Of a DNA stretch of 64,000 nt, positions 16,965 to 45,760 are shown one piece after another (position 1 is the stretch's first letter; each line of letters begins with the position of its first letter). Made by a program: the position numbers and the translations under genes. Below the pieces are notes generated by a model. It had not been told where the DNA came from and made no database searches. It saw only the letters and a program-made list of their open reading frames with translations. Source of the stretch: Pholiota molesta (lineage: Eukaryota; Basidiomycota; Agaricomycetes; Agaricales; Strophariaceae); the NCBI GenBank assembly GCA_014925825.1, contig JACGCK010000007.1, positions 434,001 to 498,000 of the forward strand, read 5' to 3'.

Positions 16965-16967
16965 TCA

Positions 16968-24996: not shown

Positions 24997-25901
24997 TACA
25001 ACATAATAGTACGTATGCAGACTTCTAGGGCCTACATGTATGCAAATATATAGCCCACAAAAACTATGACTTATTTAATTATGCTACCAGATTCGTTCAA
25101 TGGAGTCCTACCGAAGCGTGCGCCGTAAGTATTTCCAAGGCATTTTATCGGGAAGCACTTGCGGCGACTTTCGAAGTAGCTCACAAAGTTTGCACAAAGT
25201 TCATCATGACGCGAATACAAATCTGCTTAACAAGGACCCGATCACAGTTCTACCAAGATAATTCAAATTATTCTTTCATTGAAGACTATCAAGCCGCTGT
25301 TATGGCGTTTGTCGACTTCGTATCAGTGTATGGAATTCGTTGGGAATTCGCGCCGAGAAGAGCGGATGAGAGGGGCGACATTGATGTACAGCCACCAGTC
25401 ACATGATCGCCCAATTGGGAACGGACATACACCCGTCCAATTTCGGCCAACGCTCTTGACAGCCTTTCTCACTGTTACGCTTCCGCATTTGCTCGTCCCC
25501 TTGTGCTTGCAGGTCGATATCGGATGCTATATTCCCTCGTGTAGTGAAAGAACTCTGTCGCTACTGAAGGGACCTCTTTTCATTGACTAAGTCCTTGTTT
25601 CTAAAGAGGTAAAATCAAGGTAAAATATTATTTCAATACGCAATCAACATGAACCGGCGCTCGAAACACGCCTCCCGCGGACGCTCCATTCCCAATTCGT
25701 GTAAGTCCTTCTTTTTTTAATACTAGCCTAGTAAAGAAAAAAACGAATCCTTGTTCTTTGATCTTTAATATACAGCGGAATTTGAGCCCGAAATATCCAC
25801 CTCTTCGCCTCTTCGTTCTGGACACCGCTTCTCGTATTGAGCAGCGACTTCATCCTGTCTTCGTTCTTTCTGTCGTGCATCCCTCTGTAGGGGATACTTG
25901 C
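24997..25901. other. Spacer between Helitron array and receptor R1
   Basis: About 900 bp. An ATG at about 25649 opens a 17-codon frame that reaches a good GT donor, but it does not join the R1 frame convincingly. The R1 frame itself is open upstream to about 25758 without a clear start context. R1 promoter is expected here. Confidence 0.35.
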
Positions 25902-28002
25902 ATGATAATGGCTGCGACATCAGCTGCTTTGTCTTTTACCTGTGCTGCCCTCATTGCCGTATTTGTCCCAGTACAGCGTATACGCGCGAGCATTCCCCAG
26001 ATAGCGATTGTCGTATGGCTTGGTGGCTATAACCTCGTGCATGGAATCAACGCGCTGGTATGGGCAGGAAATACGGACATTCACATCCCGGTCTGGTGTG
26101 ATATGGGTAAGGTTCTCGTTTTTATGCACAAGCAATGGGGACTCATTGATATATTCAGTCACGAAACTCATGCTTGGAGCTAATATCGCCCTCCCTGGAG
26201 CATTCCTCTGCATTGCTATAGAACTACGACTCATGTCCTCTACGAAGGTCATCTCCATTAATCCCATAGTTCTGCGAAATCGTAGAATTCTAGAGGTCTT
26301 CCTATGTTATGTTTTACCCGTAATATTCATGCTTTCTCGTGGGTGATCTTTTCAACTTGCCGATTTGCATACTCAGTTTTACTTCACTATAGATTTGATT
26401 GTTCAGGATAATCGATTTGATATCGTCAAGGATCTTGGATGCTCACCTGCGACACATCCCTCCACCTTAGGCTTTTTGATCACATGGATCCCCCCAGTTT
26501 TTGTTTGCGTTTTAGTCTTTGTATTCTGCGGTGAGTATTCTCAAGTCATCTGTATTTATTTCATATTTTAACTGACGTCCAAAAACTAGCTATGTCTGTC
26601 CACAACTCAGGCCTTCATATCCTCACTCCTTTAAACGATCACCTTCAATCCCGCTCTATGATGACGTCGTCGCTCTTCTACCGCCGCTTGGCCACCTGTT
26701 TCATCATGACAGGCGCGCTTTCCATCCTGAACTTTTCTGCTCTGTTCTCCATTCCGAAATACAAACCCTGGATCTCGTGGGCGTCTGTCCACGCAACTCT
26801 GGCGCAAGTCAATATCGTGAAGGATGAGATTGACCCTGACCCAACGATGCCCAATAATGGATTCAAGAATATCCAAATTACCTGGTGGGGTATCTTTGCT
26901 ATTTCCGTTGTGTATATCGTTCTTTCTTTCGCGATTGGTGAAGAGGCTCGTGATGCATACAAGTGGATTGCCACACAGGCCTCACGGAAGAAAACCCTTC
27001 ACCGCAGCCTAGTTTTGCCCGTTTAGTGAGTGTTACTCCTTATTTATCCTTGGAATAGCATGCTCATTCAATGCTTTCTTTTACAGTAAAGTCCGCTTCA
27101 ATAAACCTCCCCCTTCGCCGGTGTCGGAAATGGTGACGCATTCTCCATCATCAACTAAATCCCACCCTCTCCCTCTTACGATCGATCTCAAGTCCGGATG
27201 GGATGATACTCTCAGAGAGAAGACACCGAGACGGATGGAATTCTTGCGCAGCCCCAGGTCGATTTCACCCAAACAAAGTTCTACGTTCAGCACCAGCAGC
27301 CGACCTACCAGTCCGAAACGGCCGTCCAGCCCGAGCGTCCGCTCCGTGAGCTCAAGCACCCAGTCCATGGCAGAGGACGACAGGGCATTCATGGAGTCGA
27401 CGCTGTCGTACCTCGGCTCTCCGACTGCGCGCACACTCGGCATCGCGCCTCTGCAAGTCCCCCCGCGCGCCCGCTCTCCCTCCGTCCGACTGGCGCTCGA
27501 GATACCGCCCAAGCCGAGCTCGCCGCCGCCCAGCCCTCCGACCCCGAGATCGACCCCGCGGCCCTCGCCCAGGCACGTCCCTCAGGACGTCGATGAGCCA
27601 GTGAACTTGGGCTCCGTGCTGAACGCGGCCTGGCCCGTCCCGCCGGAGTCGCCCACGCCCAGTCTATCGCCGTCGCGCCACGGCGCGCGGTCGCGGTCGC
27701 GGTCGCACTCGCCTGCGAGCTCCTCTGAATCGGAGGAGGCGGTGGCTGGACACCCCTCGTTCTCTGCAACCGCCTCTTCGCGCCGTAAGAGCGGGCGTCC
27801 GTTTGATTCTGCTGGCATCTCTCCGTGTGTTGTTTTTGGGGCTGTACCGCCGTTGCCTCGGACGTCTTCTGCCTCCTCTGGAAAAGTGGCTGCGCTGGTG
27901 AGCCGTAATACGCTTAGAAAGCAATGGAGCAAGGAACGTCTCAGGCAAGGCCAGTTTCCTTCCGAAATAATTCGTATGACCGTGGTTCAAGAAACGGTTT
28001 GA
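25902..28002 (+). CDS. STE3-type pheromone receptor R1 (divergent subclass, long tail)
   Basis: Seven-transmembrane receptor for farnesylated pheromones, coupled to a G protein at the plasma membrane. Exons 25902-26106, 26159-26338, 26393-26530, 26590-27025, 27087-28002 give 624 residues. Family marks: NALVWAGN and VWCDM after helix 2, GANIALPGAFLCIAIELR in helix 3, LIVQDNRFDIVKDLGC in the second extracellular loop region, PWISWASVHA, and the post-helix-7 GEEARDAYKW. The N-terminal PLPWH and AWNSGT motifs of R4 and R5 are absent. The Ser/Pro-rich cytosolic tail is about 300 residues. An ATG two codons downstream (25908) is an alternative start. R1 resembles R3 more than the other receptors in this region. 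Confidence 0.87.
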
Positions 28003-29520
28003 ATCTTCTTCGTTTTTCTTCTTTTTTTTTCTACTTTGCTTCCGTCATTTACGATCATGACCGCGGAGTAGTCTTTCAACGTCCGTTTCAGCTCTGGCTA
28101 TGCCTTCTGCCCTTCAAATTTACGACTGGATCTTTTCACACTTGTATCTATAGTCGGAGGGTGACACCACCCTCCACATTCGTGTTCTCCTTTCCCTTCG
28201 CTTTGTAGCATAGATATACCATGTAGCCTACCCCTGTTGACCGTTCCAATTATATATTATGCATATGCTGCTTTATATGTTGTTCTTTGATCATTCAGGT
28301 CACCCAGATAAAGCGTTGAAAAATAAATATCCCAACTCAGTCCCAACTGCTCTGTATCAGACTCCTGAAGCACTTCATGAGCTCTATAAATAGACTACTG
28401 TCAATGTACCATCATTTGAAGTTTCCCATGACCTCGTTCTCTTATTGTTCTGCTCTTTGTTATCACTTACGTAACTTCACCATAAACGTCGACGGTGTTG
28501 CAAAGACAATAAGCACGTCCTCCAAGGGATACTTAAAGACAGTTGCTGCATACACGGAGCCTGATCCTCTTCCTTCCTTCCTTTCACCTCGAATTGCTGG
28601 TCGCTCATGCCCCGCAAGCCCACGGAACCTTCGCAACCCCCAAGATGCAACGAGAAGCTGTGTGCCTTGTTACTTGTAGTGGAGTTTTGGACAAGGCTGG
28701 TTAGTGGATCTGATATGATGACCTAAAACTCTGGTGCGTTTCATCCCAATAAGCCTTCTCTTACTTGCTGATGATCTTCCTTCAGTTCAGTGTATCTGTT
28801 ATCTGAACTTCTGCGAAGAAATGTTCTGTTATCTTTGCGCCATACGCGTTCGACTTATCGCTCAGCGCATGGAATTGCGGCCGAATATTCATCACTCCAC
28901 TCCCCTTTTCGTCTTCAAATGCCCTCCCACCCGCTCTCACTTGGGCCATACGCTTTCGGGCGTTCACCTTGTTCTCTTTTCATTTTACGGTGGCAGAAGA
29001 TCCGACACGTGACCTTTATCTCACTGACGTTCTGTCACACGCGCGCTGGATTTGGGGTTGCCTTTCAATATTCCCCCAGAGCCCCGCCTGGCCGCATATG
29101 TTCCTCAAGGAGCGGTACCGGTCAGTGACAGTTATTCTCAGCCTACGGGGAAATCAGCAGCGCTGCCGGCATGGAGTGTTGACATCGTGATACTCGGATT
29201 TAGGTAAGGACAAGGTAGCGTCCTAATTTGGAGAACACCTTGGACGTTTGATGGCGACGGTTTTGGACGAGGACAAAGTGACGTCCAAATGCGGACGCGA
29301 CCTTCTGAAGGCGCCCACTTTGCAGAACAAGGGGACAGCCCAAAAAGCGTACACGTAGGGAACATCGGAGCACTTGCTCTTATAAACTCGGGGTGGCTTT
29401 GCAAAAAGCCACCCTCCAGTTGATCTACCTTCCGTGTACTCGAAAGTTGTCCCCTCCTCCTTCCCTTCGAGTTACCGGCCACCTCCCATCTACCAGCGAT
29501 ACCAGACAGAGGATCAGAAG
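28003..29520. other. Spacer R1-R2
   Basis: About 1.5 kb. I searched both strands for short frames ending in a CaaX box and found none. It contains ACAAGGGGA (about 29326), one mismatch from the ACAAAGGGA element seen elsewhere in the locus. Confidence 0.4.
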
Positions 29521-31048
29521 ATGACTTACCCAAACGCCATTTTCTCATTTTTTGCCTTCGTCGGCTTCCTCATGTGTTCTATCCCGTTCCCGTGGCACTT
29601 GGAGGGTAAATCGACCTTCTCTGGATTCGTATCGTGCCTTTAGCTAACTTGCTTTCGATAGCCTGGAACACTGGTACCTGCCTTTACATGGCGTGGACAG
29701 GCATTGCCTGCCTCACCCAGTTCATTAACTCAATTGTGTGGAATCGTAACGCAATCAACTGGAGTCCAATCTGGTGCGACATCTGTAAGTGCCTGCCAAC
29801 CCTCCTTCTATTCGATTGGGAACTCAGACATGCCTCTTAGCTGCGAGATACATCATCGGAACATCTTGGGGTGTTCCTGCCGCGTCTCTCTGTATCAATC
29901 GACGCCTGTACACCATCTCCTCGGTGCAGTCTGTGACTACCACCAAGGCTGAGAAGCGTAGGGCAGTGATGGTCGACCTTTCAATCGGTCTGGGTTTACC
30001 TGTCTTCGGAATGTTTCTTCGTAAGTCAGGTCACTTGAGATCAATAGACCTGCTCTAATTTGATTGTTCTACAGAATACATTGCCCAAGGCCATCGTTTC
30101 AACATCTTCGAGGATGTTGGATGCTTCCCGGCCACCTACAACACCCCCGTCGCCTATGCTCTCGTTTACTGCCCACCAGTCGCCATCGGCATGGTTTCAG
30201 CCGTATATGCCGTCCTGAGCATCCGCGCCTTCAACCAGAGCCGCGCGCAATTCAACGAGCTGCTCTCGAGCTACAGCAACCTCACATCCAGCCGATACGT
30301 GCGCCTCATGTGCCTTGCCGGCATCGAGGTCGCCTGCACCGTTCCCCTCGGTAGCTACGCCATCTATCTCAACACCACCGCCGGTATCCAGCCCTGGATC
30401 AGCTGGCAAGACACCCACGCGGACTTCTCGCGCGTGCTGCAGTTCCCGTCCCTCATCTGGCGCGCCGTGCCCACCAACCAGGCGTCCATCGAGCTCACCC
30501 GCTGGCTCGCGGTCATCTGCGCGTTCATCTTCTTCGGGTTCTTCGGGTTCGCGGACGAGGCGAAGAAGAACTACCGCTCCGCGTTCGAGAGCGTCGCGAA
30601 GCGCGTCGGGATCACCACGTCCTCGTCGGGCGGCGCGTCGTCCACCCTCAACTCCTTCACGCGGTCCAAGGGCTTCACCGCGTCCGGCAAGCTGCGCCCC
30701 ATCGCGCCCGTGTTCGTGCACAACGAGCTCCTGCGCCACCGCGGCTCGATCGGGTCGCTCACGGACATCTCGATCTCCATCGCGGACGTCAGCGGCTTCC
30801 TCGACGAGAAGAAGGCCGGCGGCGACGAGAAGGCCGACGAGTTCTCGCCGACGCTGTCGTACGGCGGCCTCACGCTGTCCGACGTGGGCGGGACGCTCGC
30901 GGACTACTCGGAAGAGCCGTACTCGCCCGCGCCCTCGTCCGGGTCGTCCTCGTCCGCATCGAGTGTGATGAGCTCGCCGACCTCCGGGTCCGCGCCCTCC
31001 CTGCCCGATCCGACACACGCAAAATCGAACACCCACGATATCGTATAA
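29521..31048 (+). CDS. STE3-type pheromone receptor R2
   Basis: Exons 29521-29605, 29662-29784, 29841-30020, 30075-31048 give 453 residues. The start MTYPNAIFSFFAFVGF leads into IPFPWH and AWNTGTCLYMAW, the canonical first loop; then SPIWCDI, IIGTSWGVPAASLCINRRLY, YIAQGHRFNIFEDVGC, SRYVRLMCLAGIEV, PWISWQDTHADFSR and FGFFGFADEAKKNYR after helix 7. It has a unique first intron between E and AWNTG and lacks the intron that ends the 138-nt exon in R1, R3, R4 and R5. The tail of about 150 residues is rich in Ser/Thr and GC. No pheromone gene lies directly beside it. Confidence 0.92.
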
Positions 31049-32297
31049 GATCGCGGACTATTTACCCTCCCTTATTTTCTCTTCTGTTGTTGTTCATATC
31101 ACTACCCCCTCTACACCTTCAGCATCTGTATCATTATTCTTATACACTGTAGCATTAGCGAGCTTCCACTCAGCATTTAGGTTCTTTTCTTGTTTATACA
31201 CTATTTGTAGCGTGTCGAGTAGAATACTCTCATAGGAGAGTTTTGGAATGGATACAAACTTAATACCAACCCTAACAACCTGGTGTGATCTGAGGGCTAC
31301 TGGCATTAACTGTCATTTGAAAACTTAAATTCACGCTGAGCACCGAAGGTGATGCCAATATTTGCGTTGCCTAGGACTTCACCGCAACGTGTATACGGGA
31401 AGGCGTCGTCTGCCTTACAACAGGATACCAATGAGACACGTATATTATTCAAGTTTTTGCTTCGAAGCTGATGAGGAAGCTACTCCATGGATCATGATCA
31501 AGATTCAAGGGATTCTATTGGACTGAGAACAAATTTTCTATCGATGATACCAGATCATCGAGAACTATATATTTAAAATGCTATTGCACGTAAATACAGA
31601 AGGGTTGGGTTGTCAACGGGGCACGATGCAGTACGGATGAGTGCAGAATTGGAGTCGCTACTGTACATATGCAGATGGGGAAAGGAATAATGATAAATCA
31701 AAGGGAGAATCCAAGGACGAAGTGAAATAAGGTGAAATCGAAAAGAATGTGTATGTTCCACTGGCATAAAGTGTCATTCAGAAAAGTTGACTTCGCAGGC
31801 TGTCCGACGAAACGATGATGGCAATGTCGATCTTTGATCAGGACTTCACAACTGTGTCTGGGAAGACATCGTTGATCTTAGAAGACACCACTGGCGCATA
31901 TTATGAATTTTTTTGCGAACTTGATGCAGAAGCTAGTCCATGGAAAAAATTCTATGGAAATCAGAACACTCAATTCATGAAGCTTTCAGATCGTAAACTT
32001 GCAATGGCCGTTCTACTCAACGCTTGCGCGTCGATCTAAACCGCCATCGCAACGGACACTCAATATAAGTACACGATTCTCTTCATGGGAATTTGGGTCA
32101 AGAAACATATATTTTTACAAACTGATATATCATAAAAAAGGACAGGAAGTGGCTACAAATAGTAATAACATTTTAAATGATTGTCGTGGTATGGTAGGTA
32201 TTTCAGCTCCTTTGAGAAGAAGTGTCTATAACGAATCGTGGACGGAGCGTCAAGCTGAATAAATACAGAACGTAAAGAAATGCACAGGTCGGCCCTA
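31049..32297. other. Spacer between R2 and R3 (convergent)
   Basis: About 1.25 kb. It holds a 74-codon frame (31815-32039) ending in NACASI, discussed as a doubtful CaaX candidate. No receptor or other gene seen. Confidence 0.35.
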
Positions 32298-33940
32298 TCA
32301 AAGCCTCCTCAGCTTAGCGGGGTCGATGTACTGGTGTGATGGATCATCCGAGGGAAATGTGAAAGGTCGTGGTGACGTAGGCAGGTCCGGGTCCGCTCTA
32401 TCCACCCTCGTCGCGAAATGCGACGGCGGAGGGGAAATAGGCGACGGCGGGGACAGAGGCAATGCCTTCAGATCGATATTGGCGGTGTATGCTGGCGCCG
32501 CAGATTTTGACGGAACAGGGGGCGTGAGGTCTCCCAGAGACCCGATGGCGTTGTATTGGCTGTACATGAAAGGCGTGCCGGAGGGGTATTGGGATGCTTC
32601 GGAGGCAGTGTCGTATTCAGAGTCTCGGAAAAATGATTCAGACTTCTTGATGGAGGATGGACTTGCGGGCATTGTGGATGAGATGCCTCCGTTCGAAGAT
32701 GATACCAGGGTAGGGGATGAGATAGGAAGGACGCCCTTTTCTTTCCGGCTGAGAGATATCTTCGTAAGTATTGGTCAGAGAAGCAATGGATGTTTCGGAC
32801 TAACCTTGACAAGTTTTGAAGCCTCTTTTCCCCTTTGAAATAGCGGGGAGGCGCAGGACGTGAGTTTTGAACCAAGAGAAGCATTTCTTATATTCTTCCA
32901 TGGCGTCTTGTCCAAATGAAAAGAATGCCACGAACAGAATTGTTGATGCAGGGACGAGCCACCATAGCGCATAGTACGTCTTCAGAATCATAGGCGGGGT
33001 AAACAGGGAGAGATAGGGATCGACGCGGAGGAAGTCCGAATGAACATCGGCCCACGTTGTCCAAGGTCGCATTGGAAGCGCAGTAACAGTGAACCACAGA
33101 GCGTACAAGGTTCCACCAAGGGACCAAAACATTTGAAAGACAGCCATGAGCATGAGGCGAAAGTATCGGGATGTTGTTAGAGCAGAATTGGACGCGTTAA
33201 GATGGGACGCAAAAGAAAGACGCCTTCGGATGAAATGCCTAAGGGCCAGGGCTGGCAATGAACGGGTACATCAACAAAAGGTCCATGAGATATACGAAGG
33301 AAAGCGGACTTACCAGAGAATACGAGAGCACCAATTGACATAATGATGGGGGGAATCCAGACGATAAATATCGCGGGGATAGAGAAATATGTCGTTGGGC
33401 GGCAGCCATAATCTTCGATGATATCAAAACGATGACCTTGAACAATATAGTCTGGGATAGCGATAAATATTCCGGCAATAGAGAGGTAGAGCGAAAGCCA
33501 CATACGCAAAATCATGAAAATGAAAGGAACTCCAAGGCACATAAAGGCTTCAAAATACTGCCTTCGGCGTTTGTCCGCGATCGAGGTACGTGCGAGTCGG
33601 AGAGAGGAAACTTGTTCTAGGTGTATCGCAATACAAAGACACGCGGCAGGAAGAGCAAAGTTTGCGCCAATAATAATCTTCGTAGCTGTGTATGCCAGTT
33701 TGTTAGGGGACCATAGAAGGTTATTATGGTTAAGTACGCACATATATCGCACCATACTAGAGCTCTAATGTTGACATTTCCTGCCCAGATGGCAGCATCG
33801 ACACCGTAGATAATATTAGACAAAAAGAGCCATCCAATGATGGACAAGGTTCCCATGTTTCGGGCACGCCAATGCCATGGTAGAGGTAGAAGGAGGGAGA
33901 AGGCGGCAATGAACGCGACGGGGACGAATTCAGGATGCAT
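32298..33940 (-). CDS. STE3-type pheromone receptor R3 (divergent subclass)
   Basis: Exons 33742-33940, 33506-33685, 33314-33451, about 32824-33250, then a tail exon ending at TGA 32298. Start MHPEFVPVAFIAAF, then LPLPWHWRARNMGT, DAAIWAGN, VWCDI, IIIGANFALPAACLCIAI, YIVQGHRFDIIEDYGC, TTSRYFRLMLMAVFQMF and PWTTWADVHSDFLR. Post-helix-7 sequence is GQDAMEEYKKCFSWF. The 180-nt and 138-nt exons equal those of R1. The splice into the tail exon is the weak point: I chose the frame containing SESFFRDSEYDTASEASQYP because it resembles STE3 tails, but another frame also stays open. ACAATGGG and ACAAAGGG motifs lie upstream. Confidence 0.87.
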
Positions 33941-34035
33941 GATGGTATTGGGGGGTTAAGGAATTGTTCGATAGGCTGTGAAGCGTATATTTGAGGTTTC
34001 GCTTGAGGCCGCATTGTGCGAAACTCGCTGCATAG

Positions 34036-34154
34036 GACAAAGGGCGGCAGAGGACAATGGGCCATGGCCAGAGATGGATGTCGTTCCAGCTTGGTTCCCA
34101 TTGCCTTTTTTGGCCGTCAAACAATGCACTGTGACAAGCTTCAGTGACCATTGT
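34036..34154. promoter_or_regulatory. HMG-box-type motifs upstream of R3
   Basis: ACAAAGGG at 34036-34043, ACAATGGG at 34053-34060, ACAATG at 34121 and CCATTGT at 34148-34154, all 100-215 bp upstream of the R3 ATG. They match motifs upstream of R4, R5 and the pheromone genes. Confidence 0.5.
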
Positions 34155-34990
34155 GCTGTGACTAAGGTTGTCACGACTGTGACATACACTGTGTGCCAAA
34201 TATAGTTATAGGCAGATGCGTATTGGATGCGTACTCGATATTCCGCGGCTTTCCACGAGTCTGAGATTGGGCGACAAAGAAATTTTGAGTAGGAAAATCT
34301 CTATAGACTACTGTAGCTCTTCACTTAATTTTCCAAAAATTATACATACTTACATGTCATGTCATTTGTGTATTCTACGACATTTTTGGTCTAATGGTGC
34401 TTGAAAACATTTCCCATCGTGCCATCGCAGCTACCTTAATACCGACATAATACAGTTCGCCACCATACCGTGCCAGTCGTTGCCATCTCAGAAGAGAGCA
34501 TTCATTGACTCTTGATACCATGGCAAACTAAATATTCGATTTTTGCTACCCACCCACAAGAGCGGAGGTACATAACTTAACATAGGAAGCTATATCGATA
34601 TAAGAAAAACAATAATTTCAAGCCATATTAATTAGGTTTAGAGCCTAGCGTCTACAGGACTAGAATACAGGAATGAATCTGATCATGAGCTAACGATACA
34701 ACCAAACGAAGGGCTATGTGTGGGATCCGAAAAGATGATGGTAAAGAGCGACGTAAGGTGAGGCGCAGAAAAAGAACTAAGGAATCATGAGTACAAGTAA
34801 TATATAAAGCGCGCAATTTGGAGGACTAACCATAACGAATACAAGAGAGATAATTTAATGCTTGCAATGTGGTGACTTGAGTAAGGGCGATACTGCAAAA
34901 GATAGGCTGAGCTGCTAAGAAATAGCCATCAGAGAGGGCGTAAAATTTGCATCGAGGGAGTCGTACCTCTACACAAGCCGCCGCAGATAT
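34155..34990. other. Spacer between R3 promoter and P1 3' end
   Basis: AT-rich stretch with no recognisable frame or repeat. It should contain the 3' untranslated region of P1. Confidence 0.35.
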
Positions 34991-35149
34991 CTATGCAATA
35001 ACGCAAAGACTAACATAATTGGGGTCTTGCCTATCGAGGTCAACTGGTGTCGATGAAGAAAATGACTCCAACGAGGATTGCGCTACGAGCGATGAAACCT
35101 CAGTCTCGACGGGAAGCTCTATAGAGAGTAGATCGATAAAGTTATCCAT
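34991..35149 (-). CDS. CaaX pheromone precursor P1
   Basis: 52-residue precursor of a farnesylated lipopeptide pheromone. Starts MDNFIDLLSIELPVETE, an acidic pro-region typical of the family, and ends in the CaaX box CVIA. A Ser-rich stretch and STPVDLDR precede the presumed mature part; cleavage after the Asp-Arg would leave QDPNYVSLC, with the farnesyl and methyl ester on Cys. The longer frame upstream of this ATG has no family features. Divergent from P2, 684 bp apart, with ACAATGG-type motifs between them. The cleavage point is inferred from the charged dipeptide found in other Agaricomycete precursors. Confidence 0.88.
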   Translation of the reverse strand: MDNFIDLLSIELPVETEVSSLVAQSSLESFSSSTPVDLDRQDPNYVSLCVIA

Positions 35150-35429
35150 AAGGGGTGCAGTGTTGATTTGGGTAGGGATGTAGTGGCTTGGTCGTTTATC
35201 AAGTGGGGGGTTCTGCAGTGGGTAACGTCGAATTTGCAGAGGGGAATTCGAACGGTGATGGTGGTGGGTAAATTTGCGCACGAATAATGCATCTTGAGGT
35301 ACTTTATGCGTTTTAGATTTAATGGCCCAAACTATTGCCAGAACACAATTGATCGTGCTTTGCACATTGTTCGATGTCTGCGCCGTGCGGCTTGGCCATC
35401 CTTTGACCGCTTAAGCGCTTACAGCTGAG

Positions 35430-35660
35430 CCCATTGTGACACTGCCACCTGGTCACACACACTCGCCCACCAATTCCGACCTGTGCTGGGCCCTGGCGCC
35501 TTCCTTCAACCTTCCTTCCAGCACAGTATCCTATCACTCGAACTCCTCATGTATACTTAAAAATATGAGAACGTAGGCTGATAGGGAATTGATCGGAGAA
35601 TGAATCCTTTTTGGTTCCATTAGTGGCACGATGATCTGTGCATTGTGCGACGAACAATGG
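35430..35660. promoter_or_regulatory. ACAATGG-type motifs between P1 and P2
   Basis: CCCATTGT at 35430-35437 and ACAATGG at 35654-35660, with looser ACATTGT copies near 35364 and 35784. They sit in the shared upstream region of the divergent pheromone genes. Confidence 0.45.
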
Positions 35661-35732
35661 CATCTCACCCGAATTTTCCCAAGCGAGCCAGGGCAAAAAT
35701 GGCGGACAATTAAAGTCCGAACGTCAGTGCAC

Positions 35733-35740
35733 TATATAAT
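35733..35740 (+). promoter_or_regulatory. TATA box of P2
   Basis: TATATAAT about 95 bp upstream of the P2 ATG. Confidence 0.55.
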
Positions 35741-35833
35741 GCGACAGAGCCCAGAGACAACCGGTAACGCATCCCTTCCAGCCCACATTGTGCAAACATC
35801 GCTCACAGCTATCACCTACACCTAACGCTTGCA

Positions 35834-36004
35834 ATGGATACATTTACATCTTTCTCTTTCGACGAGCTCTTCGGCCTATCGTCCTTTGACGACACCTTTT
35901 CGAACCCATTCTCTGAACCACAGCCAGAGTCCACACCTGCGGTACCGGTGGATCAAGAGAGACAGAGCGGGCCTACTGCGACCACCTTCTGCGTTATCGC
36001 ATAG
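35834..36004 (+). CDS. CaaX pheromone precursor P2
   Basis: 56-residue precursor starting MDTFTSFSFDELFGLSSFDD and ending TFCVIA, a CaaX box identical to that of P1. PESTPAVPVDQER carries the charged Glu-Arg at which family members are cleaved, which would leave QSGPTATTFC as the mature farnesylated peptide. A neighbouring frame in the same place gives a longer but featureless peptide. The gene is read away from P1 and toward R4, whose ATG is 1.1 kb downstream. The short acidic/Phe-rich start MDxF is shared with P1, P3 and P4. Confidence 0.9.
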   Translation: MDTFTSFSFDELFGLSSFDDTFSNPFSEPQPESTPAVPVDQERQSGPTATTFCVIA

Positions 36005-36794
36005 TCAGGTATGCTCGCCATTCCCGTCATATTTTTCTTAGACCTGATTGTTTCTTTTTCTAGTCATGATTTATTATCTTTACTTGGATCTCTTATCTAT
36101 TTAGAGATCTTTATTCAAGTAAGAATTGCATCTGCCTTCGTCCGTTTATCAGGAGCTCACAAACGCCAGTAGCTCCGTTCATCTCCCTATCATTTGTCGT
36201 CACTATACCCTTCCGCCACCATCTTCATATTTCTTTCGCTGTTTTTTTTATTCTTTAGTGATTATTGTTAGTTCACCCACTACCCATCGGCTTTGTACAG
36301 TGTACATCGCTAGCGTATCATTCCTTGACCTTCGTATATCATTATTTAGTTTTCCTTGGGTTTTTCACACCTTATATCCTGTCCTTATCTTAGTGACGAC
36401 TCTCTCATTGCATTGTTATACTCGCACAATATCGAATTGTATCAATAGTTTTTCATTGCAAATCACATTCCATCTAGTTTGCCAGTAACTCCTAAGAATC
36501 CTCAAGGCCGTTGGCAGGAAGAGACTTTATTTATAAGAAACAAACAAATCCGAACGAAAACCTTTGGAAACTATAGAGAGAGATACTTAGTCTGAATATT
36601 AGAATAGCTTTTGTAGCCTCCTACAAAATCAAACCCATACACAACAACAGAATTTGGCGACCAATCGCATATTCATTCCTGATATATTTCATTCTGGCTG
36701 AGGGGATGTCCAAGGGATGCGCTGCGTACCACGTCGATTCGCAGTCGACGCTTCAAGGTCGGATGGCGAGGCCGAAACGAAGATAGGCTAATGA
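36005..36794. other. P2 downstream region
   Basis: T-rich downstream region with long hydrophobic chance frames and no recognisable gene. Confidence 0.35.
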
Positions 36795-36992
36795 ACAATG
36801 CTATTGGAACGAACAATGGACTTGGTAAGAACCCAGGATAGAACAGTGCAGTGATGGCGCCCGCCAAAAAGGGGAAATTCGCTTACTGTTCAAACTCCGC
36901 ACAGCTGTAATCCCATTGTATGGCCTGTCACATGTCACAATGATTTCGCCAACTTTGTTACAGCGCGCTTTCAACGGTCTGGTACAAAGGGA
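36795..36992. promoter_or_regulatory. HMG-box-type motifs upstream of R4
   Basis: ACAATG at 36795, ACAATGG at 36813-36819, CCCATTGT at 36912-36919, and ACAAAGGGA at 36984-36992, the last identical to the Prf1 pheromone response element described in Ustilago maydis. They lie 107-304 bp upstream of the R4 ATG. Confidence 0.55.
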
Positions 36993-37098
36993 ACGTCCCA
37001 GTACTAGAAATGCACGAGAATAACCCAACGAAAGCTTTGTTCTACTTCCCCCACTTCTTGGCCCAACCCCCTGCATACCGCCGCCCTCAATCCACACC

Positions 37099-38603
37099 AT
37101 GGCTGACCCAAGTTACCCTGCCTTTCCTGTGTTTGCCTTCCTCTCATTCATTCTCGTCCTCATCCCTCTGCCTTGGCATTTTCAAGCATGGAACTCTGGG
37201 ACATGTCTATACATGATTTGGACTGCTATCGGTTGTCTCAATCTTTTCATCAACTCCATCATATGGCATAACAATGCTATCGACTGGGCGCCAGTCTGGT
37301 GCGATATATGTGCGTCTACATTTCCTCTTTCCCTCTACATTAATTCTGAAAGACTCTTTCGATCTTAGCTACTAGAATTGTCGTCGCCGTTGGGGTAGCG
37401 ATACCAGCCGCTTCGCTTTGTATCAATCGTCGGCTATATAAGATCGCTTCTTGTCAAACGGCAACAATCTCTATGGCTGAAGCAAGTGCTTTTTACTTCC
37501 CATATCTTCACGTCGCTTACAATTGAACAGAAAAAACGTGCAGTCTTGATTGACTTGGCCATTGGTCTAGGAATTCCACTTCTCCAGATACCTTTGCGTA
37601 TGTCGCTTCACTTGTCATTTCTGCGATGACGCTGATGATCCTGCCGCAGAATTTATTGTCCAGGGGCATCGATACGACATTTTTGAAGATATTGGCTGCT
37701 ATCCTACTACAGTGAACACCCCCGCCGCATATCCTCTCAGCTTCGTTTGGCCGAACATAATTGGCATCATTTCCGCTGTATATTGTAGTACGTCTTGGGC
37801 TCCTTTTCAATGTTGAACCTGAATTAACAGATATATCTAGTCCTCACTCTAAGAGCCTTTATGCAACGACGGGCAGAATTTAGCCAATTCCTTTCATACA
37901 CCACCTCACTCACGATGAATCGCTACTTCCGTCTGATGTCCCTTGCGACTGTGGAACTGCTCTTTAACCTCCCGATATCGAGTTATGGCCTCTATCTCAA
38001 TGCTACGGGTCGACCCATCTATCCCTGGACGAGTTGGTCAGATATCCATTCCGACTGGTTCACTATTGACACTTATCCCGCTCTTCTGTGGCGAGCGAGC
38101 CCTGTCACGGTGGTAACCTTTGAGTTGAGCAGATGGTCTTTGGTCTTCTGTGCCCTAGTATTTTTCGGCTTCTTTGGCTTCGCTTCTGAGGCAAGGAAGA
38201 ATTATCGTAAGGCATACTGGTCAGCTGCCAAACGTTTTGGTTTCGTTCCTCCGCCTTCCGCCAGCAGCAAAGTCTTTTATGGGTAAGTTTAATTCATGTG
38301 ATTCTGCTATTTACCTATGTCCTCATTAATCTTTTCCCCAGCTTCAAAAACTCGAAGTCAGACACATCCCGCCCTGTCTTTGTTTCCCCTCCACTCCAAC
38401 TTACACCCACCAAATACGATTCATTCAACGCCTCGACACAAACCTCCACCTACCACAAGACCGAATCAACGGCATCTCTCAGCCAGACGACTATCTATCA
38501 CGATCCAAAGGCGGACCATAATGATACGCCAATTTCGCCATGCGATACGTTTACCTTCTGTCCTTCTAGTCCAACACATACCCACAAGTCCGACTCGCCT
38601 TAA
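37099..38603 (+). CDS. STE3-type pheromone receptor R4
   Basis: Exons 37099-37309, 37369-37481, 37531-37597, 37650-37787, 37841-38282, 38342-38603 give 410 residues. Start MADPSYPAFPVFAFLSF, then LIPLPWHFQAWNSGTCLYMI, APVWCDI, VAIPAASLCINRRLYK, FIVQGHRYDIFEDIGCYP, NRYFRLMSLATVEL, YPWTSWSDIHSDWF and FGFFGFASEARKNYR. These are canonical Agaricomycete mating-receptor motifs. The tail is short (about 110 residues) and Ser/Thr/Pro rich. Intron 2 (37482-37530) has a GC donor, GCAAGT. The 113-nt and 67-nt exons add to the 180-nt exon of R1-R3. P2 lies upstream in the same orientation; HMG-type motifs lie in the promoter. Confidence 0.93.
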
Positions 38604-40722
38604 CCTGATGTCCCCGGATCTTTGTTCATTTTTACTCTTCAGCCGATGAGCTCTCGTAGGATAGCTCTGTATGGCACCTGTTCTTGCTCTCCAAGCCAAC
38701 AAAAAACGCTTGGAGATATTCCACCACACTCTTCAACTTACCTTTAGATCCTCCATTAAACCATGTATTACTATTTATGACGCTCTGAATATGTATTTCC
38801 ACTTTAGCGACAGTCATCGTGAATTCGACATGTGTATAATATAGATTTTGTGGACTTGACTCTGTTTAGTGAGCAAGGAACAACCTCATACGAACAGTGC
38901 AGCAGTGCAATCTGCTGTAGAACAGGGGACCAAACAATGGCACTCGAGAGAATGGTAATTTTCTGGTATTTTTACTGCTAGCGCATTGCCAATTGACCAG
39001 TGCAGCCTCAACCAAGTCAGTCCAAAGGCGACTTATTGACCATGAGACTGTTGGGACACCAGGGAGCAGAGCTGAAAGATCGAAGCCAAAGCACATTTCA
39101 GCGAGCAAACCATGTATGTATGTCCAAGAATTTACTTCGAGCCTATGCAAACCTTATTGCACTTTTTTCTGGATCGACTGATACGCTTATACGAATATGA
39201 TATAGCATTTATGTACACAATTTATTTAAGGCGTACTTTCGATGCCGAGGCCGGAGTGAAGCGTACATAGCAGATGAAAGATTCGAACATATATAATAAC
39301 GATTCAAATGACAGCCGAGAGAATACAAGCGTTCCCCAGCGTAAAATACAGCAGACAGAAATGAGTATGGGAGGTATTCAATGCTACGAAACTGGAAGAA
39401 AGGCAGAGAAGGATGAATATATCATAATGTTTCCGGTGATGGCATGGTGGGACTCGAGAGCACTGATGTACAACTTTTTGGCGTTGATTTAGCGTCTGGT
39501 TCATTCCAGTCACCCTTCTTATTGCGGGCACCAGAAAATGTGCGGGAGACTGCGCACGCCGACAGTGCTTGACCTGCCATACACAAAGAATTGTGCGTGG
39601 TATGTGCGTCCGAGTACGAGTAGTACTAGTGACTATGTAGTGATGTGCGGGAGATACCAAGATGGATGAGAGTCATTGCACCGTGTGAACTTGCCATCCA
39701 CGTCGTGTGATCCGATTTGACGACTGAGTACATACTTCTAATTTGTATAAACCCTTTCTATGTAGTTGTTGAGAAGGTGGACATCTTTGTGTTCAAAGTC
39801 GAAAGATCCCCATTTCGATGTCCCTCAGTCGGCTCTGGGGCATTTTAACTTTGGAACGAAATCTGAATCTGGGATGACACTTAAACAATGCTTAAACGTT
39901 AAGGAAAGGCATCTCCGAGTATGCATTAAAGAGTTTTTTCAGGTATATTCCCACTCGAATGCGCGTGCTTGCACCTGGGTTGTGCTATTCATGTTACAAG
40001 CTTCAATTTCTCCTCTTTTAGTTCTGACACTTATTTCTCCGAAGCGTTTGCTGTTGTGAACGTGCTCGACGTTGCTCCGAGCTGGGTCCACGGAGCCCGC
40101 TGGCTTTGATCATTTGAGCAACTCAAGATCATCGCAGTTCCCTTTCTATGGTTATGAGCTCGCTTTCGCTCACCAGGTTGAACTGCCATAATAAAAGTTG
40201 TATCTGACTTGGACTAGTATGCTAGCATTCTCGTACTCGCGTATTCAGGCTACTCGGATGACAATTCGAGATAAATAATGCATTTACAGTATCTACTGGA
40301 TAATAATACATCGGCGTTGGTGCTTTCGATACAAATTTTGTGATGGAAAGAGATGCGGAGCGTAAGTAATGCAATGGATGACATGAACAAATAATCAGGG
40401 GGGCGCAAATTTGAATAAAGAAAGTGTCGAAGAAGCGGTTGAAATGTGGAATGAGAGGAGGGAAGGGGAGAATGTGAACTCCGAGGTGGGTAAAGAAAGG
40501 GAAAGAGGGATAAAATGAATACTGATGAGAAGTAGATGAGATCATTGAAACGCGATATGGGGATCAAGAATAAACTGACGATAATGATTGGACGTCCTGC
40601 AGACCTTCAAGGCCGTAGGATGGGTATCGCAAAATGCATATGATCTGTCAATTCAATAAAAAGCGGCGGTTGGAATAAATAAGCCACAGATAATGGAGGT
40701 AGACATACAGGTACGTGCCAGT
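38604..40722. other. Spacer between R4 and P3
   Basis: About 2.1 kb without a recognisable gene. One ACAATGG stands at 38934-38940. Frames of 60-120 codons here overlap each other on both strands and show no motif. An intron-containing pheromone gene cannot be excluded. Confidence 0.35.
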
Positions 40723-40896
40723 CTATGAAATGACGCAGAACGCGCCAATTGAATTGGAGTTATAATGGTCTTGGTCCACAGGCGTAGACTCGGAGGAGTC
40801 GCGCTGCTCGGATTGTTGGTAGAGGGTTGGCTCATTGCCCATTGAGTCAGGCGACAAAGCCGCGAATTCGAAGTCGAATGTGATGAAGTCGTCCAT
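40723..40896 (-). CDS. CaaX pheromone precursor P3
   Basis: 57-residue precursor starting MDDFITFDFEFAAL and ending GAFCVIS, a CaaX box with Ser last, favouring farnesylation. ESTPVDQDH corresponds to the ESTP(AVP)VDQER of P2; cleavage after the charged pair would leave YNSNSIGAFC. The frame is open further upstream, but the family-like sequence begins at this Met. The strand is the same as P4, 1.3 kb away. A TATA element stands about 130 bp upstream. Confidence 0.88.
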   Translation of the reverse strand: MDDFITFDFEFAALSPDSMGNEPTLYQQSEQRDSSESTPVDQDHYNSNSIGAFCVIS

Positions 40897-41023
40897 TGGT
40901 AACAGGAGAGTAGGGGTTGGCTGCAACAAATGTGGGTGCAAAAAGCGACGATTTGGTAGCGAGCGAAGTGCGAATGTGCGATAGCAGGGGATGCGCGAAT
41001 GAGTGAATGCGTTGTGCTCCAAG

Positions 41024-41032
41024 GTTTTATAG
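41024..41032 (-). promoter_or_regulatory. TATA box of P3
   Basis: Minus-strand CTATAAAAC about 130 bp upstream of the P3 ATG. A CCATTGT (41055-41061) stands just upstream of it. Confidence 0.5.
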
Positions 41033-41061
41033 AGCTTTGGCTTCGCTTTGGCCACCATTGT

Positions 41062-42216
41062 TCGCGAACAACGCGTAGCAGCACAATGAGATAAATTTCA
41101 AACTCCGACAATGCACCATACAGCGACTCCCGTGCCGCATTATTGCTGTTCACACAGTAAGCTAACGACAGCGTAGAAAAGGCCCATTTGGAAGTTCGGT
41201 GGAATTGGTCCAAGTATGCGCCTTGTTGTATTTTGGGTCGGAATTTTGAGTGCCACAGTTACATAGGCCAACCTTCCCACGCAACTCCGAGCAAGGCGCG
41301 TCACCCATGTTGAGCGCGTTGAGCGCTCGAGCGCTAGCATTATTATTATCAGTGTCTGAAGATCCTGTCTTTCCGAATCAGCATTTAACGCACAAAATGT
41401 CCCATAGTGTGAGGTTTCGTGTAACTTTTGTTACGCTTGTCGCCTTTTTCGGAATTCAGAAATGTTGTCATCATTTAAGGCATTGTTACCCAAATAAGGC
41501 AATCAAACTTCTCATTGTGTTCGTTTTGAAACTCCGCTCCTCGCGGCATCCAGGGCCTGTGGTTTTCTTTGAATAAGTCATGGTATACGTTGTAAGGTCT
41601 GATATTTAAGTCATCGGAATGGAAGCATTCGTAGTGGAACCGATATAGAATGCAGTCGTCGGGCGTTGGCCAGGCGGCGCACTGGCAGCGATGAAGGGAT
41701 TTATTTCCCTTGATTTCCCCCCCGCATTTCTTTCTTCAAGCTCAAACACACAAAGGTCTTGACTTTGGGTACGAGTTGCGTTGCAAATGAATTTATTCCA
41801 AAAGCTGTCCTCTAGGGGACGAGCACACATTTCAGGCATTAAAATTTCGAAGCAAGTTCCACCTGCATTTACATTGTATGTATTTAAATCCAACAAAAAG
41901 CGAATAATAAAAAAGTGAGGGCGTGAATGTATATCGAAGCTGGAATTTAATGAGAGTAGTGATCGAGGCCATAATGATAGGGCTACATAGAGAGTGAAGA
42001 TCGAAGATGCCGCTGGAGACAATGAGGAAAGTTTATCATGACAGCTGAAAGAAGAAATGAGATGCTTGAAACGAGAACGAAAAGAGAAGACTGACGTTAC
42101 ATCGTATACACGGGGTGATACATAGAAATAAATATATGCCGAAGTTGCTGTTCAGCTAAACAAGAGAAAGGTCTTCCGAATGAGTGTCACAGTTTTGAAG
42201 AAAAAAGGCGTGATAC
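41062..42216. other. Spacer between P3 and P4
   Basis: About 1.15 kb. Short overlapping frames only; nothing recognised. Confidence 0.35.
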
Positions 42217-42390
42217 TTACGCGACTGTACACCAGGTAGCGGGCCTCCAGGCTGAGTCCTCGTCAAGAGGAAAATCGGGGAGATCGTCGAGAAACGATTC
42301 AGTGCTTGAAGATGAGGGTGGAGAGGTTTGGGTAGCGAAGCTCTCTGCTTCGACAGGAAGAGCGAATATGGCGGTAGCGAAAAAATCCAT
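42217..42390 (-). CDS. CaaX pheromone precursor P4
   Basis: 57-residue precursor starting MDFFATAIFALPVEAE and ending ATWCTVA, a CaaX box of the type C-T-V-A. The middle is Ser/Thr-rich and acidic (FLDDLPDFPLDED). No ER or DR pair precedes the C terminus; a cut near DEDS would leave AWRPATWC, so its mature end is less clear than in P1-P3. The TAA overlaps a GTAAGT donor-like sequence, so a spliced alternative end is possible. It shares a 432-bp upstream region with the divergent receptor R5. Confidence 0.85.
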   Translation of the reverse strand: MDFFATAIFALPVEAESFATQTSPPSSSSTESFLDDLPDFPLDEDSAWRPATWCTVA

Positions 42391-42511
42391 TGGATTGCGA
42401 TTGTAGTGGGATGTGATTGGGTTGTGAGGTGGGCGAAGGCAAATGCGAGCTGGTAAGTACACTCCAGGTGGTTGTAGAAATGCAAGTTAGGGATATGCAC
42501 GGGGCGGGCGA

Positions 42512-42536
42512 ACAAAGGGACGTCTGGCTTTTATAT
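42512..42536. promoter_or_regulatory. ACAAAGGGA element and TATA box upstream of P4
   Basis: ACAAAGGGA at 42512-42520 equals the Prf1 pheromone response element. TTTTATAT at 42529-42536 reads ATATAAAA on the P4 strand, about 140 bp upstream of its ATG. Confidence 0.5.
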
Positions 42537-42564
42537 CATCCAAATTTCGGGTCCTGGCTTTGGC

Positions 42565-42729
42565 CCCATTGTCAGTGGCATGGATTGCGTTCACACGGAC
42601 ACCAAATAGGGACGCCGAACGCAACAGCAAACAATGGAGAATGCAGAGTCACGCGTGACACCCATCATAAGTTGGCCCATTGTGACAACATTCTGGAAGC
42701 GAACGGCCATTGTCGCAGGAGCCCATTGT
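42565..42729. promoter_or_regulatory. Cluster of five ACAATGG motifs between P4 and R5
   Basis: CCCATTGT at 42565-42572, 42676-42683 and 42722-42729; CCATTGT at 42707-42713; ACAATGG at 42631-42637. Five 7-mers in 165 bp is far above chance, and they fill the shared promoter of P4 and R5. Known fungal pheromone-response factors are HMG-box proteins that bind ACAAAG/ACAAT cores; binding here is inferred. Confidence 0.65.
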
Positions 42730-42822
42730 CCTCCCAGAACGAACACCAGGGAAAGGATATTAAAGAAAACGACGAAAAGATGGCTTCAACTTACACTCTG
42801 CCACCCTCTTCTTCGAGCATCT

Positions 42823-44898
42823 ATGACTGTCTCTACCGATCCTACCTACCCGCTCTTCCAAGTCTTCGCCTTCCTAGGCTTCATTGCGAGCATCATCCCG
42901 CTTCCATGGCATATCCAGGCGTGGAATTCGGGCACATGCGCTTTCATGATATGGACAGCATTGGCTTGTCTGAATAGTTTTGTAAACTCTATCGTATGGG
43001 CCGGAAACGTCTCTAACCCAGCACCAGTGTGGTGTGATATCTGTGAGTGCTAGACAACTTCCGAGTTCTATTCAACCATATTTAATCATGGTCTCTCATT
43101 TTTTTAGCCTCAAAACTGATCATTGGAGTCAGCGTTGGAATCCCTGCGGCGACGCTATGCATTAGTCGACGTTTATATTATCTCACTGCAGGAAACACCG
43201 CTTCCATAACGCGCGAAGATGTATGTGCCGTTCCAAATGCATTCTGATGCAAGCATCTCATACCTTCCCTTTCACTAGAAACGTCGTATGGTACTTATAG
43301 ATTTGTGTATCGCAGTTGGAATGCCTGTTATCATTATGATCCTTCGTGCGTTTATTTTGCCACCTTTTCATGCTCGTTGCTCACCTTTATTGCAGATTAT
43401 ATTATTCAAGGCCATCGCTTTGACATTCTCGAAGACGTCGGTTGCTATCCAGTCGTCTACAACACACTGCCATCCTATTTCCTTTACTTCATGTGGTCTC
43501 CCATCTTCGGCTGCATCTCCTTTTGCTTTTCCGGTTCGTCTTCTCCGTTCCCCTTCACCTTTTCGTTTACTGATTTAACCTACAGCAATGACTCTGCGCT
43601 CCTTCTGGGTGCGCCGCGCACAATTCAACCAGCTCATCACCTCCAACTCCTCCATGAGCATCAGCCGCTATCTGCGGCTCGTCTTCCTCGCACTCATCGA
43701 TATGATGTGCACTCTCCCACTCGGCATCTACTCCATCTACATTGGTAACAAGGGTGTCACGCTCGCGCCGTGGATCTCCTGGGAGGACACGCATTTCAAC
43801 TTTTCCCATGTCGGGCTCGTCCCTAGTCTCATCTGGCGCCTCAACCCGTCATACCGCGTCTCGATGGAGTTGTCGCAGTGGCTCCCGATTGCGTGCGCAT
43901 TTTTGTTCTTCGGCCTGTTTGGCTTTGCCGCGGAGGCGAAGAAACACTACAAGCTTGTGTACTGGGCTGTGATGAAACGATTTGGCGTCAAGCCCGCACC
44001 GCCAAAGCAACCTTTTACTTACAAAAGCTACAGGTAACTATCCAGCCTTCCCTTTCTGCGTTTATTATCATTTCTGACACACTATACTCCCCTTTGTAGC
44101 TGGAACAAACCAGACGCAAACAGCCCCACCAAGCTCACCCTCGACTCACTCCCACCCTATTCCCCCAAATCAGAAACCTCTCCCACCTCCGTGATCAGCA
44201 TCACCAAGAAACTGGACCGTTCATCCTCGTTTTCCACCGCGGCCTCGACACGCGCGGGCGGCGAGTACGAGCTTGGCACATACACTAAGAAGCATGCGAA
44301 CTACACAGCCAGCGTCCTCGACATCGACATCGAGAAAACTGCGGGCCTGCGGTCCCCTGCTTTCTCTTACGCAGAGACAGAGACGGTTTACGACGCTAAT
44401 TCTCCAAACGGTACCCAGAACCATACGCCTCTATACAATATCCGCCCGCAGCTCGACACCCATGCGCCCGACAGCGCGGACGAGTTCACGTTCGTGCCTT
44501 CGCCTGCATCGCCCGCGTCAGGCTCGGGGTCTTTCGCACAGCAGCAGAGCACGCCGCCGACCGCGCCCGCGCATCCTCCTCCATCCCCATCTGTACCCTC
44601 AGCGTCATCACCTTCACCCTCACTGCCCATACCCCACCACCAGGCCAAGCAAAAGACGAGCAACTCCTCCATGCGCACCATCCTCTCCCCGGACCGCGAC
44701 CGGTTCTACATCTCGCCCCTGCGCAAGCTGAGCGCGGAGTCCGTGGCGTTCCCGACGACGCCGCCGCCATTCGTGAACGCTGCGGTGGCCGCCCCGGCGG
44801 CGGCGGCGGAGAGGGCGGGCTGCGGCCGGCATGTCATCCAGGTGATGGTGCACAAGACGGAGACGACGTCCACGGAGCCGCTGTGCTTTCGACCTTGA
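42823..44898 (+). CDS. STE3-type pheromone receptor R5
   Basis: Exons 42823-43042, 43108-43220, 43279-43345, 43396-43533, 43586-44033, 44100-44898 give 594 residues. Start MTVSTDPTYPLFQVFAF, then IIPLPWHIQAWNSGTCAFMI, APVWCDI, LIIGVSVGIPAATLCISRRL, YIIQGHRFDILEDVGCYP, ISRYLRLVFLALIDMM, APWISWEDTHFNFSHV and FGLFGFAAEAKKHYK after helix 7. Intron positions equal those of R4. The tail of about 280 residues is Ser/Pro/Ala rich with many Ser-Pro pairs. Divergent from P4 across the ACAATGG cluster, so the two may form one regulated module. An in-frame upstream ATG (42634) lies inside the motif cluster and was rejected. Confidence 0.93.
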
Positions 44899-45760
44899 AG
44901 AATGGGTGTCTGGGTGTGATTCGAGCGGTCTGCGACATCCCGCGGACGCTTGCTTTCGCCCTTGCCTTCCCGAATGAAAATGCCTGTATACTTATCCTTA
45001 TTTCCCTTCCAGTGCTTCCATCCTCGTCTCGCACATGCGCACTCCCTGCTCTTGGTCTCTCCTTTCCCTTTCTTGCTCAAAATTGTATCTGTATTATATA
45101 TCACGCCATCCCCTTCTGCTATACCCTCCTCGTCTGCGGCGCGGGCTACACGCATTATTCACACATCGCATCGGCTTCTGCACCTGTATCCTACTGCTCG
45201 ATTCCTCCTAACTCCAGCGTCATGCTCTTGTCGGACTGATCCCCAGACTGTTTCGGTTCCCTTCGTTTTAATGTCCTCATGCATAACTAGAATCTGTATT
45301 CGGATAACGAATAATATTATTGTGAATATCTCTACATACTAAAAACAAGGTTTTTCTAGCGCCCGATGATTCAATCACCATGATAGTACAGACACGTAGA
45401 AAAGGATCCAGGTCGTCTATTCTCCCGTGCGAAGCACGGATTCAACCTCTAGTAATATACATACCGCAAAGCCACAGCTACTCAACCTGGCGCCTAACCA
45501 ATTCATTTCTGCGCAGCATTGCATCTTAGCCTAGACGATCTCAAAACATTATTTCCCCCTCAGCATTAGAACCGAGCCCGGCCCTTGACAGAGGGAATTT
45601 GATTCATGATATACATAGCTAACAGGTATATGAGACTTACAAAGCAAAACAACAAAGGAACGCGATGAGCTACTGGGGAGAAAAACAAAAACTTGACAAA
45701 AAACTTGCAAAATTCTATAAATAACCTAACGAGTTGACGGGCGCCTTGTCAGCGCGGCGT
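44899..45760. other. Spacer downstream of R5
   Basis: Pyrimidine-rich 3' region of R5, then AT-rich DNA. No gene seen. Confidence 0.35.

Follow-up and report, generated by a model that had tools for sequence, protein, structure and literature searches.

Results

Receptor and pheromone precursor genes

The window, the whole 64,000-nucleotide stretch of Pholiota molesta (Strophariaceae) DNA analysed here (C593:434001-498000, in an assembly of 65.58 Mb and 625 contigs), contains five genes for STE3-type seven-transmembrane receptors (R1 to R5) linked to four short frames for CaaX pheromone precursors (P1 to P4), the two components that mark a B mating-type locus. All nine genes, in the order and on the strands given in a preliminary description made from the sequence alone, were recovered as spliced models, Pfam STE3 matches and CaaX frames (Table 1). 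Nearly the whole Pfam STE3 profile was covered by each of the five receptors, which were modelled by spliced alignment (E = 5.6e-56 for R1, 1.1e-109 for R2, 3.3e-95 for R3, 2.8e-111 for R4 and 2.1e-110 for R5), and the introns recur in consistent phases, as that description had held, with 1,1,1 at the start of R1, R2 and R3 and 1,0,1,1,2 common to R4 and R5. In the tree, R1 sits at the end of a very long branch (4.15), and R2 is placed as sister to the Rcb3 group.

Across the assembly, an STE3 search yielded 36 exon-level matches on three contigs only, namely C593, where they lie within R1 to R5, C17 and C13. The C13 receptor, at about C13:311.6-313.1 kb, may be broken or mis-modelled, its models carrying two internal stops. 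NCBI already holds models for R3 (P0122, 468 aa), R4 (P0241, 410 aa) and R5 (P0001), so these receptors are not overlooked genes. The first two map exactly to the window, and that of R5 ends at 329 aa; the frame beyond it, to 44898, closes with a motif that resembles the Crassisporium P0003 tail, and the GenBank model therefore appears to be cut short by an intronic stop. The R5 end at 44898 given earlier is thus probably right, while other ends had to be moved: R3 reaches ~32298, R4 reaches ~38603, and R1 has a tail frame to 28002, in which 292 of 314 aligned residues are identical between the two haplotypes compared below.

The four precursors are single frames of 52, 56, 57 and 57 aa, matching the earlier range of 52-57. 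Two of the four exceed the cut-off of the Pfam pheromone profile (PF08015, 22 bits), and P1 and P4 match the profile end to end despite scores below it, P4 being the least certain of the set. Together they stand far above shuffled sequence. Among frames of 45-75 aa, the 16.2 kb core delimited below contains four that end in a CaaX motif, and each of the four begins with Met-Asp; 200 dinucleotide-shuffled versions averaged 0.28 and 0.01, respectively. For the whole window the corresponding counts are seven and four, compared with averages of 1.03 and 0.03 over 60 shuffled versions. By the Met-Asp/CaaX criterion, no precursor lies in the window outside the core. A wide CaaX scan gave 10 frames in the window and nine in C17:1-100000. 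The frames 31815-32039 (74 aa, ending CASI) and 36801-37100 (99 aa, ending CSFQ) were dropped as precursors, both lacking a Met-Asp start and being absent from the narrower count.

Table 1. Features of the window and of the corresponding region of C17 (window coordinates unless C17 is given)
Feature	Position	Strand	Description
9 kb insertion	16042-24996	+	Left of the locus, absent from C17; repeated DNA; Helitron-type frame 19784-22306, PIF1 helicase frame 22252-23865
R1	25902-28002	+	Divergent STE3-type receptor; 7TM part 25902-26106, 26159-26338, 26393-26530, 26590-~26990; tail frame to 28002, joining intron provisional
R2	29521-31048	+	STE3-type receptor; exons 29521-29605, 29662-29784, 29841-30020, 30075-31048
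Allele-specific (idiomorphic) core, B locus	31759-47962 (~16.2 kb)	.	Unaligned to C17 except short, mostly coding pieces
R3	32298-33940	-	Predicted mating-type receptor, Rcb2 group; exons 33742-33940, 33506-33685, 33314-33451, 32805-33251, 32298-32740 (stop included)
P1	34991-35149	-	Pheromone precursor, 52 aa, ends CVIA; single frame; Pfam 13.9 bits, E 0.12, under cut-off
P2	35834-36004	+	Pheromone precursor, 56 aa, ends CVIA; single frame; PF08015 38.3 bits, also matched in whole-genome search
R4	37099-38603	+	Predicted mating-type receptor, Rcb3 group; exons 37099-37309, 37369-37481, 37531-37597, 37650-37787, 37841-38282, 38342-38603 (stop included)
P3	40723-40896	-	Pheromone precursor, 57 aa, ends CVIS; single frame; PF08015 37.7 bits, also matched in whole-genome search
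P4	42217-42390	-	Candidate pheromone precursor, 57 aa, ends CTVA; single frame; Pfam 14.0 bits, E 0.11, under cut-off
R5	42823-44898	+	Predicted mating-type receptor, Rcb1 group; 7TM exons 42823-43042, 43108-43220, 43279-43345, 43396-43533, 43586-44033; tail ~44100-44898, introns provisional
b1	C17 50762-50920	-	Precursor, above Pfam cut-off
b2	C17 52218-52430	-	Precursor, above Pfam cut-off
b3	C17 53651-53809	-	Precursor, above Pfam cut-off
r3	C17 55586-56712	-	Receptor, Rcb2 group
Broken Rcb3-group gene	C17 56995-57482		Matches R4 residues 163-299 only; one in-frame stop
b4	C17 59285-59467	-	Precursor, above Pfam cut-off
r5	C17 60298-61825	-	Receptor, Rcb1 group
b5	C17 62449-62631	+	Precursor, above Pfam cut-off
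b6	C17 63523-63702	+	Precursor, above Pfam cut-off
r6	C17 from 64643	+	Receptor, Rcb2 group

An idiomorphic core between conserved flanks

Two haplotypes from one assembly were compared, that of the window and that of contig C17. The window was aligned by blastn to C17:1-100000, and the core was defined as the part with no alignment at E 1e-10 apart from short pieces in receptor exons. Both flanks are colinear, window 17-16041 and 24997-31737 corresponding to C17 26999-43096 and 43096-49881 on the left, and window 47963-64000 to C17 67431-83490 on the right, with an identity (gaps excluded) of 91.1-98.6% per kb except for 84.8% at 48-49 kb, at the right edge. The edges of the core are sharp, the longer alignments ending between 31758 and 47963, and a sensitive search of the core against C17 (word 7, E 1e-3) returned 12 short matches (33-251 bases), most of them in receptor exons or at the edges. 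The left edge piece, 31278-31758 (roughly 500 bases), has a second match of 82% at C17 51374-51889, which represents a duplicated boundary in C17. The locus thus takes divergent alternative forms between conserved flanks, as a B locus does.

R3, R4, R5 and all four precursors lie in the core of the window haplotype; R1 and R2 belong to the conserved flank on its left. The earlier description of a complete locus with five receptors is therefore sustained as to the B locus, but the allele-specific locus has three receptors in this haplotype, and the limits 25902-44898 are replaced by about 31759-47962. Its suggestion of several subloci or of a mixture of mating and accessory receptors finds support on both counts in the haplotype comparison, R3 to R5 sharing the core with the precursors and R1 and R2 being accessory-like. 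Of 20 flank frames, only some received a Pfam name: phosphorylase, AA9 and PBP frames, those of Helitron and PIF1 type, and a single weak match to MFS; the MFS-like gene lies right of the core at 50883-51299 and scores 26.6 bits, below the Pfam cut-off. Neither an Rfam scan of the window nor a 5.8S rRNA search gave a match, and a search for receptor relics beyond the known genes at E 0.1 turned up only a chance match of 18 residues on C17.

On C17 the order is r1 and r2 (the alleles of R1 and R2), b1 to b3, r3, a broken Rcb3-group gene, b4, r5, b5, b6 and r6. The C17 core accordingly holds six precursors, all six over the Pfam cut-off, three intact-looking receptors and the broken gene, of which only the TM5-7 end is left, 283 bases from the start of r3. 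The set of intact receptor groups hence differs between the haplotypes, C17 having two Rcb2-group receptors, one of the Rcb1 group and no intact one of the Rcb3 group. A PF08015 search of the whole assembly, in which P1 and P4 were not recovered, gave nine matches, two in the window core (P2 and P3), six in the C17 core and one on C74; that eight of the nine sit in the two cores is an observation in support of the main reading given in the Discussion.

Divergence and phylogeny of the receptors

The preliminary description had expected mating-specific receptors to be far more polymorphic between alleles than accessory ones, and between the two haplotypes R3 and R5 proved highly divergent, against a dS of 0.09 for R1 and R2. 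R1 and r1 share 308 of 319 residues (96.6%; dS 0.093, dN/dS 0.18), and R2 and r2 share 446 of 453 (98.5%; dS 0.091, dN/dS 0.09). By contrast, only 175 of 318 residues are identical between R3 and r3, 164 of 321 between R3 and r6 (dS saturated for both pairs) and 196 of 327 between R5 and r5 (dS 2.68), and the sole C17 counterpart of R4 is the broken gene. R1 and R2 thus behave like the flank, and R3 and R5 do not.

Protein searches and the tree place the core receptors of the window in all three Coprinopsis groups, R5 in Rcb1, R3 in Rcb2 and R4 in Rcb3. R5 is 84% identical to a Flammula alnicola protein (over the 329 aa GenBank model) but only ~60-62% to r5, and R3 is 78% identical to a Pholiota conissans protein but 55% to its best C17 match; R4 is 85% identical to a P. 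conissans protein, 76% to Coprinopsis Rcb3 B43 and 74% to Pholiota microspora RCB1. A first tree combined 11 of our own models with 83 of 354 fetched non-P. molesta proteins, hand-chosen for named species and spread. In maximum-likelihood trees of 30 and 38 rows, in one run of which the bootstrap had not settled, Flammula was the partner of R5, Agrocybe pediades that of r5, P. conissans that of R3 and Hypholoma that of r6 (100/99 in each case), and r3 fell in a set with Agrocybe salicacicola, Galerina and Gymnopilus (100/98). Forcing window and C17 counterparts together gave trees that were rejected (AU p 1.75e-18 for R5/r5, 9.6e-56 for R3/r3 and 1.9e-5 for R3/r6), the tested groups having been named after the first tree was seen, though position and group also dictate them.

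That R3, R5 and the corresponding C17 receptors join those of other species or genera and not one another is the pattern that long balancing selection gives, and they may represent old allele lineages common to several species. For the Rcb2 group a different history is conceivable: two Rcb2-group proteins occur on apparently one contig in each of P. conissans, Crassisporium, Galerina, Gymnopilus junonius and Pluteus, so R3, r3 and r6 could belong to paralogous lineages, present or absent by haplotype, and would then not be alleles.

The HD (A) locus

Homeobox_KN matches were found on C68, C614, C112 and C408, those on C112 and C408 adjoining MIP-type peptidase genes; none lies on C593 or C17. 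Between flanks of 94.9 and 95.2% identity, the HD stretch aligns poorly between C112 and C408, which points to two divergent forms. The B core lies >460 kb from the ends of C593 and the HD locus >460 kb from the ends of C112, suggesting, as judged from the contigs, that HD and P/R are not closely linked. The system is probably tetrapolar, both loci being heterozygous and carried by separate contigs, which is what a tetrapolar dikaryon should show.

Discussion

Taking these observations together, we consider it highly probable that the window carries one haplotype of the Pholiota molesta B (P/R) locus, comprising an idiomorphic core with subloci for non-self signalling and, beside it, two non-mating receptors. 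Because the core holds the precursors together with R3 to R5, and R1 and R2 lie outside and are nearly identical between haplotypes, the region reads as a B locus with one receptor per Coprinopsis group plus two non-mating receptors. We infer the mating role of the locus from these sequence features, and likewise a non-mating role for the STE3-like R1 and R2, which are conserved between haplotypes, lie outside the core and have no precursor of their own.

In the B loci of agarics, precursors are farnesylated at the CaaX motif and trimmed, and activation is non-self. On this scheme, the subloci would by position be R3 with P1, P2 with R4, and P3 and P4 with R5. The precursors would be farnesylated at the CaaX cysteine and then trimmed to the mature peptide; after fusion, a peptide from one nucleus would activate a receptor of the other haplotype, self pairs being inert, and receptor activation would lead through a G-protein/MAPK pathway to nuclear migration and clamp-cell fusion.

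A reading in which all five receptors, R1 and R2 included, determine mating type draws on their linkage to the core, their intactness in both haplotypes and their common family, but we give it almost no credence and reject it: R1 and R2 track the flank in identity and dN/dS, the window has no precursor outside the core by the Met-Asp/CaaX criterion, and non-mating receptors beside the locus are described as common in Agaricomycetes in the sections cited of PMC8305134 and PMC8161036. It is also very improbable that C17 represents a paralogous or foreign region (a duplicated locus, a second strain or a contaminant) and not an allele. The assembly is partly single-copy, C593:384-394 kb and the C13 receptor region having no long second copy, and is therefore not an evenly phased diploid; however, C17 is colinear with the window across both flanks, which leads us to reject a foreign contig, C593:554-564 kb also matches C17 at 95%, and a mixture of two strains would still yield two haplotypes of the species.

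More serious, though still improbable in our judgement, is a P/R locus without a mating role, as in bipolar mushrooms, in which HD alone sets mating type and the cores are old alleles still segregating. B data for P. nameko were reportedly given by Aimi et al. in 2005. This species, of the same genus, is described as bipolar in the cited part of PMC11856836, so a P/R locus in Pholiota need not determine mating type; its RCB1, the Pholiota microspora RCB1 that is 74% identical to R4, is an Rcb3-group receptor, the very group of which C17 carries a broken gene, and the PR locus of Agaricus bisporus has lost its mating role by the account excerpted from PMC8305134. Against this, old cores that do not align, intact-looking receptors on both sides and full precursor sets are what continuing balancing selection predicts, whereas an unselected locus would be expected to approach the roughly 6% difference found in the flanks. 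Within the favoured reading of a B locus, we offer tentatively, as a rather doubtful extension, that P. molesta, in a genus whose most studied member is bipolar, retains three subloci under long balancing selection, that sublocus number is itself polymorphic and that C17 lost its Rcb3-group receptor by deletion and gained a second Rcb2-group receptor, a step of B erosion toward bipolarity.

As a B mating-type locus it is thus real, looks complete and is of an ordinary kind, and its limits are now better defined. A single dikaryon-like assembly proved enough for allele comparison to separate mating-type from accessory receptors, and for pairing tests it offers six core receptors that look intact and ten candidate precursors, of which the window has four and C17 six. 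The point worth following is the difference between haplotypes in intact receptor groups.

Comparison with known systems

Our literature searches on mating found no title naming P. molesta. The window haplotype resembles the Coprinopsis cinerea B locus in having one receptor each of the Rcb1, Rcb2 and Rcb3 groups, from which C17 departs with two Rcb2-group receptors, one Rcb1-group receptor and no intact Rcb3-group receptor; an MFS gene, reported for C. cinerea in the part cited of PMC13108863, has a possible parallel in the sub-cut-off match right of the P. molesta core. The P/R locus of Hypsizygus marmoreus, given in the cited excerpt of PMC8686365 as three STE3, two STE3.s and three PHB genes in 22 kb, is alike in architecture and in having two receptor intron classes (five and four introns there); against its three precursors, P. 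molesta has four in the window and six on C17, along with the broken Rcb3-group gene. For Pleurotus ostreatus, the portion cited of PMC13108863 describes matB alleles likewise variable in gene number, with receptors ranging from three to five and precursors from four to six, and non-mating STE3 genes >96% identical outside the locus; its loci span 40-150 kb, compared with ~16 kb in P. molesta.

R1 and R2 have parallels in the brl genes of Schizophyllum commune, which the relevant passage of PMC8161036 describes as STE3-like, beside the B locus, without pheromone genes of their own and conserved between strains; one more such receptor elsewhere in that genome may be compared with the C13 receptor. 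The excerpt from PMC8305134 also records, for the four other species compared with Agaricus, a pair of non-mating receptors close to the PR locus. In Trichaptum, compatible types arise from mating proteins <86% identical according to the section cited of PMC8970355, and the P. molesta core receptors, at 51-60% between haplotypes, lie below that level.

Given the reports on Hypsizygus and Pleurotus and in the Agaricus paper, as far as the cited sections go, neither the architecture nor the variable receptor number is new. P. nameko is bipolar, and by the part cited of PMC11856836 the 2025 genome paper did not recover its B locus; knowing both haplotypes of this locus in another Pholiota is therefore of some value, making the loss of a P/R mating role open to study within one genus.

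Sequence features at and beyond the B locus

The GenBank model of R5, the Rcb1-group mating-type receptor, is 329 aa long, and the stop codon that closes it probably belongs to an intron; a conserved-looking C-terminal tail (window 44034-44898) extends on to 44898. Within the core, the allele-specific part of the locus, the gene-poor right end holds 2.8 copies of a tandem repeat with a 59-base unit (window 46938-47100).

The insertion beside R1, a receptor of the conserved left flank, contains a Helitron-type frame and has near copies elsewhere in the assembly, with 98% on contig C229. About 90 kb from the locus, C593:554001-561713, on the window's contig, and C17:134204-141960, on the second haplotype, are 95% identical but run in opposite orientations, while the adjacent sequence keeps the same orientation in both: a small inversion between the haplotypes.

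Features outside the allele-specific core
Feature	Location	Strand	Remark
Transposon-rich insertion, 9 kb	window 16042-24996		0.9 kb left of R1; window haplotype only
STE3-type gene away from the B locus (L019)	C13:about 311600-313100	-	similar to R2
Orphan pheromone precursor, 58 aa (L036)	C74:18775-18951	-	

The models built for the STE3-type gene on C13 carried two internal stops, and the gene may be broken or else mis-modelled; a search of the assembly found no second copy of this receptor region. The STE3 search of the assembly gave no match on C74, the contig of the orphan precursor. This precursor contains a tandem pair of near-identical cores, EDTGSGGGGNAYCVVS and EDTGSGGGGNAYCVVA, alike at 44 of 48 bases, which resemble the non-mating pheromone-like peptides GGGSGNGAYC and GGGSGNNAYC given for Coprinopsis and Laccaria in PMC8305134.
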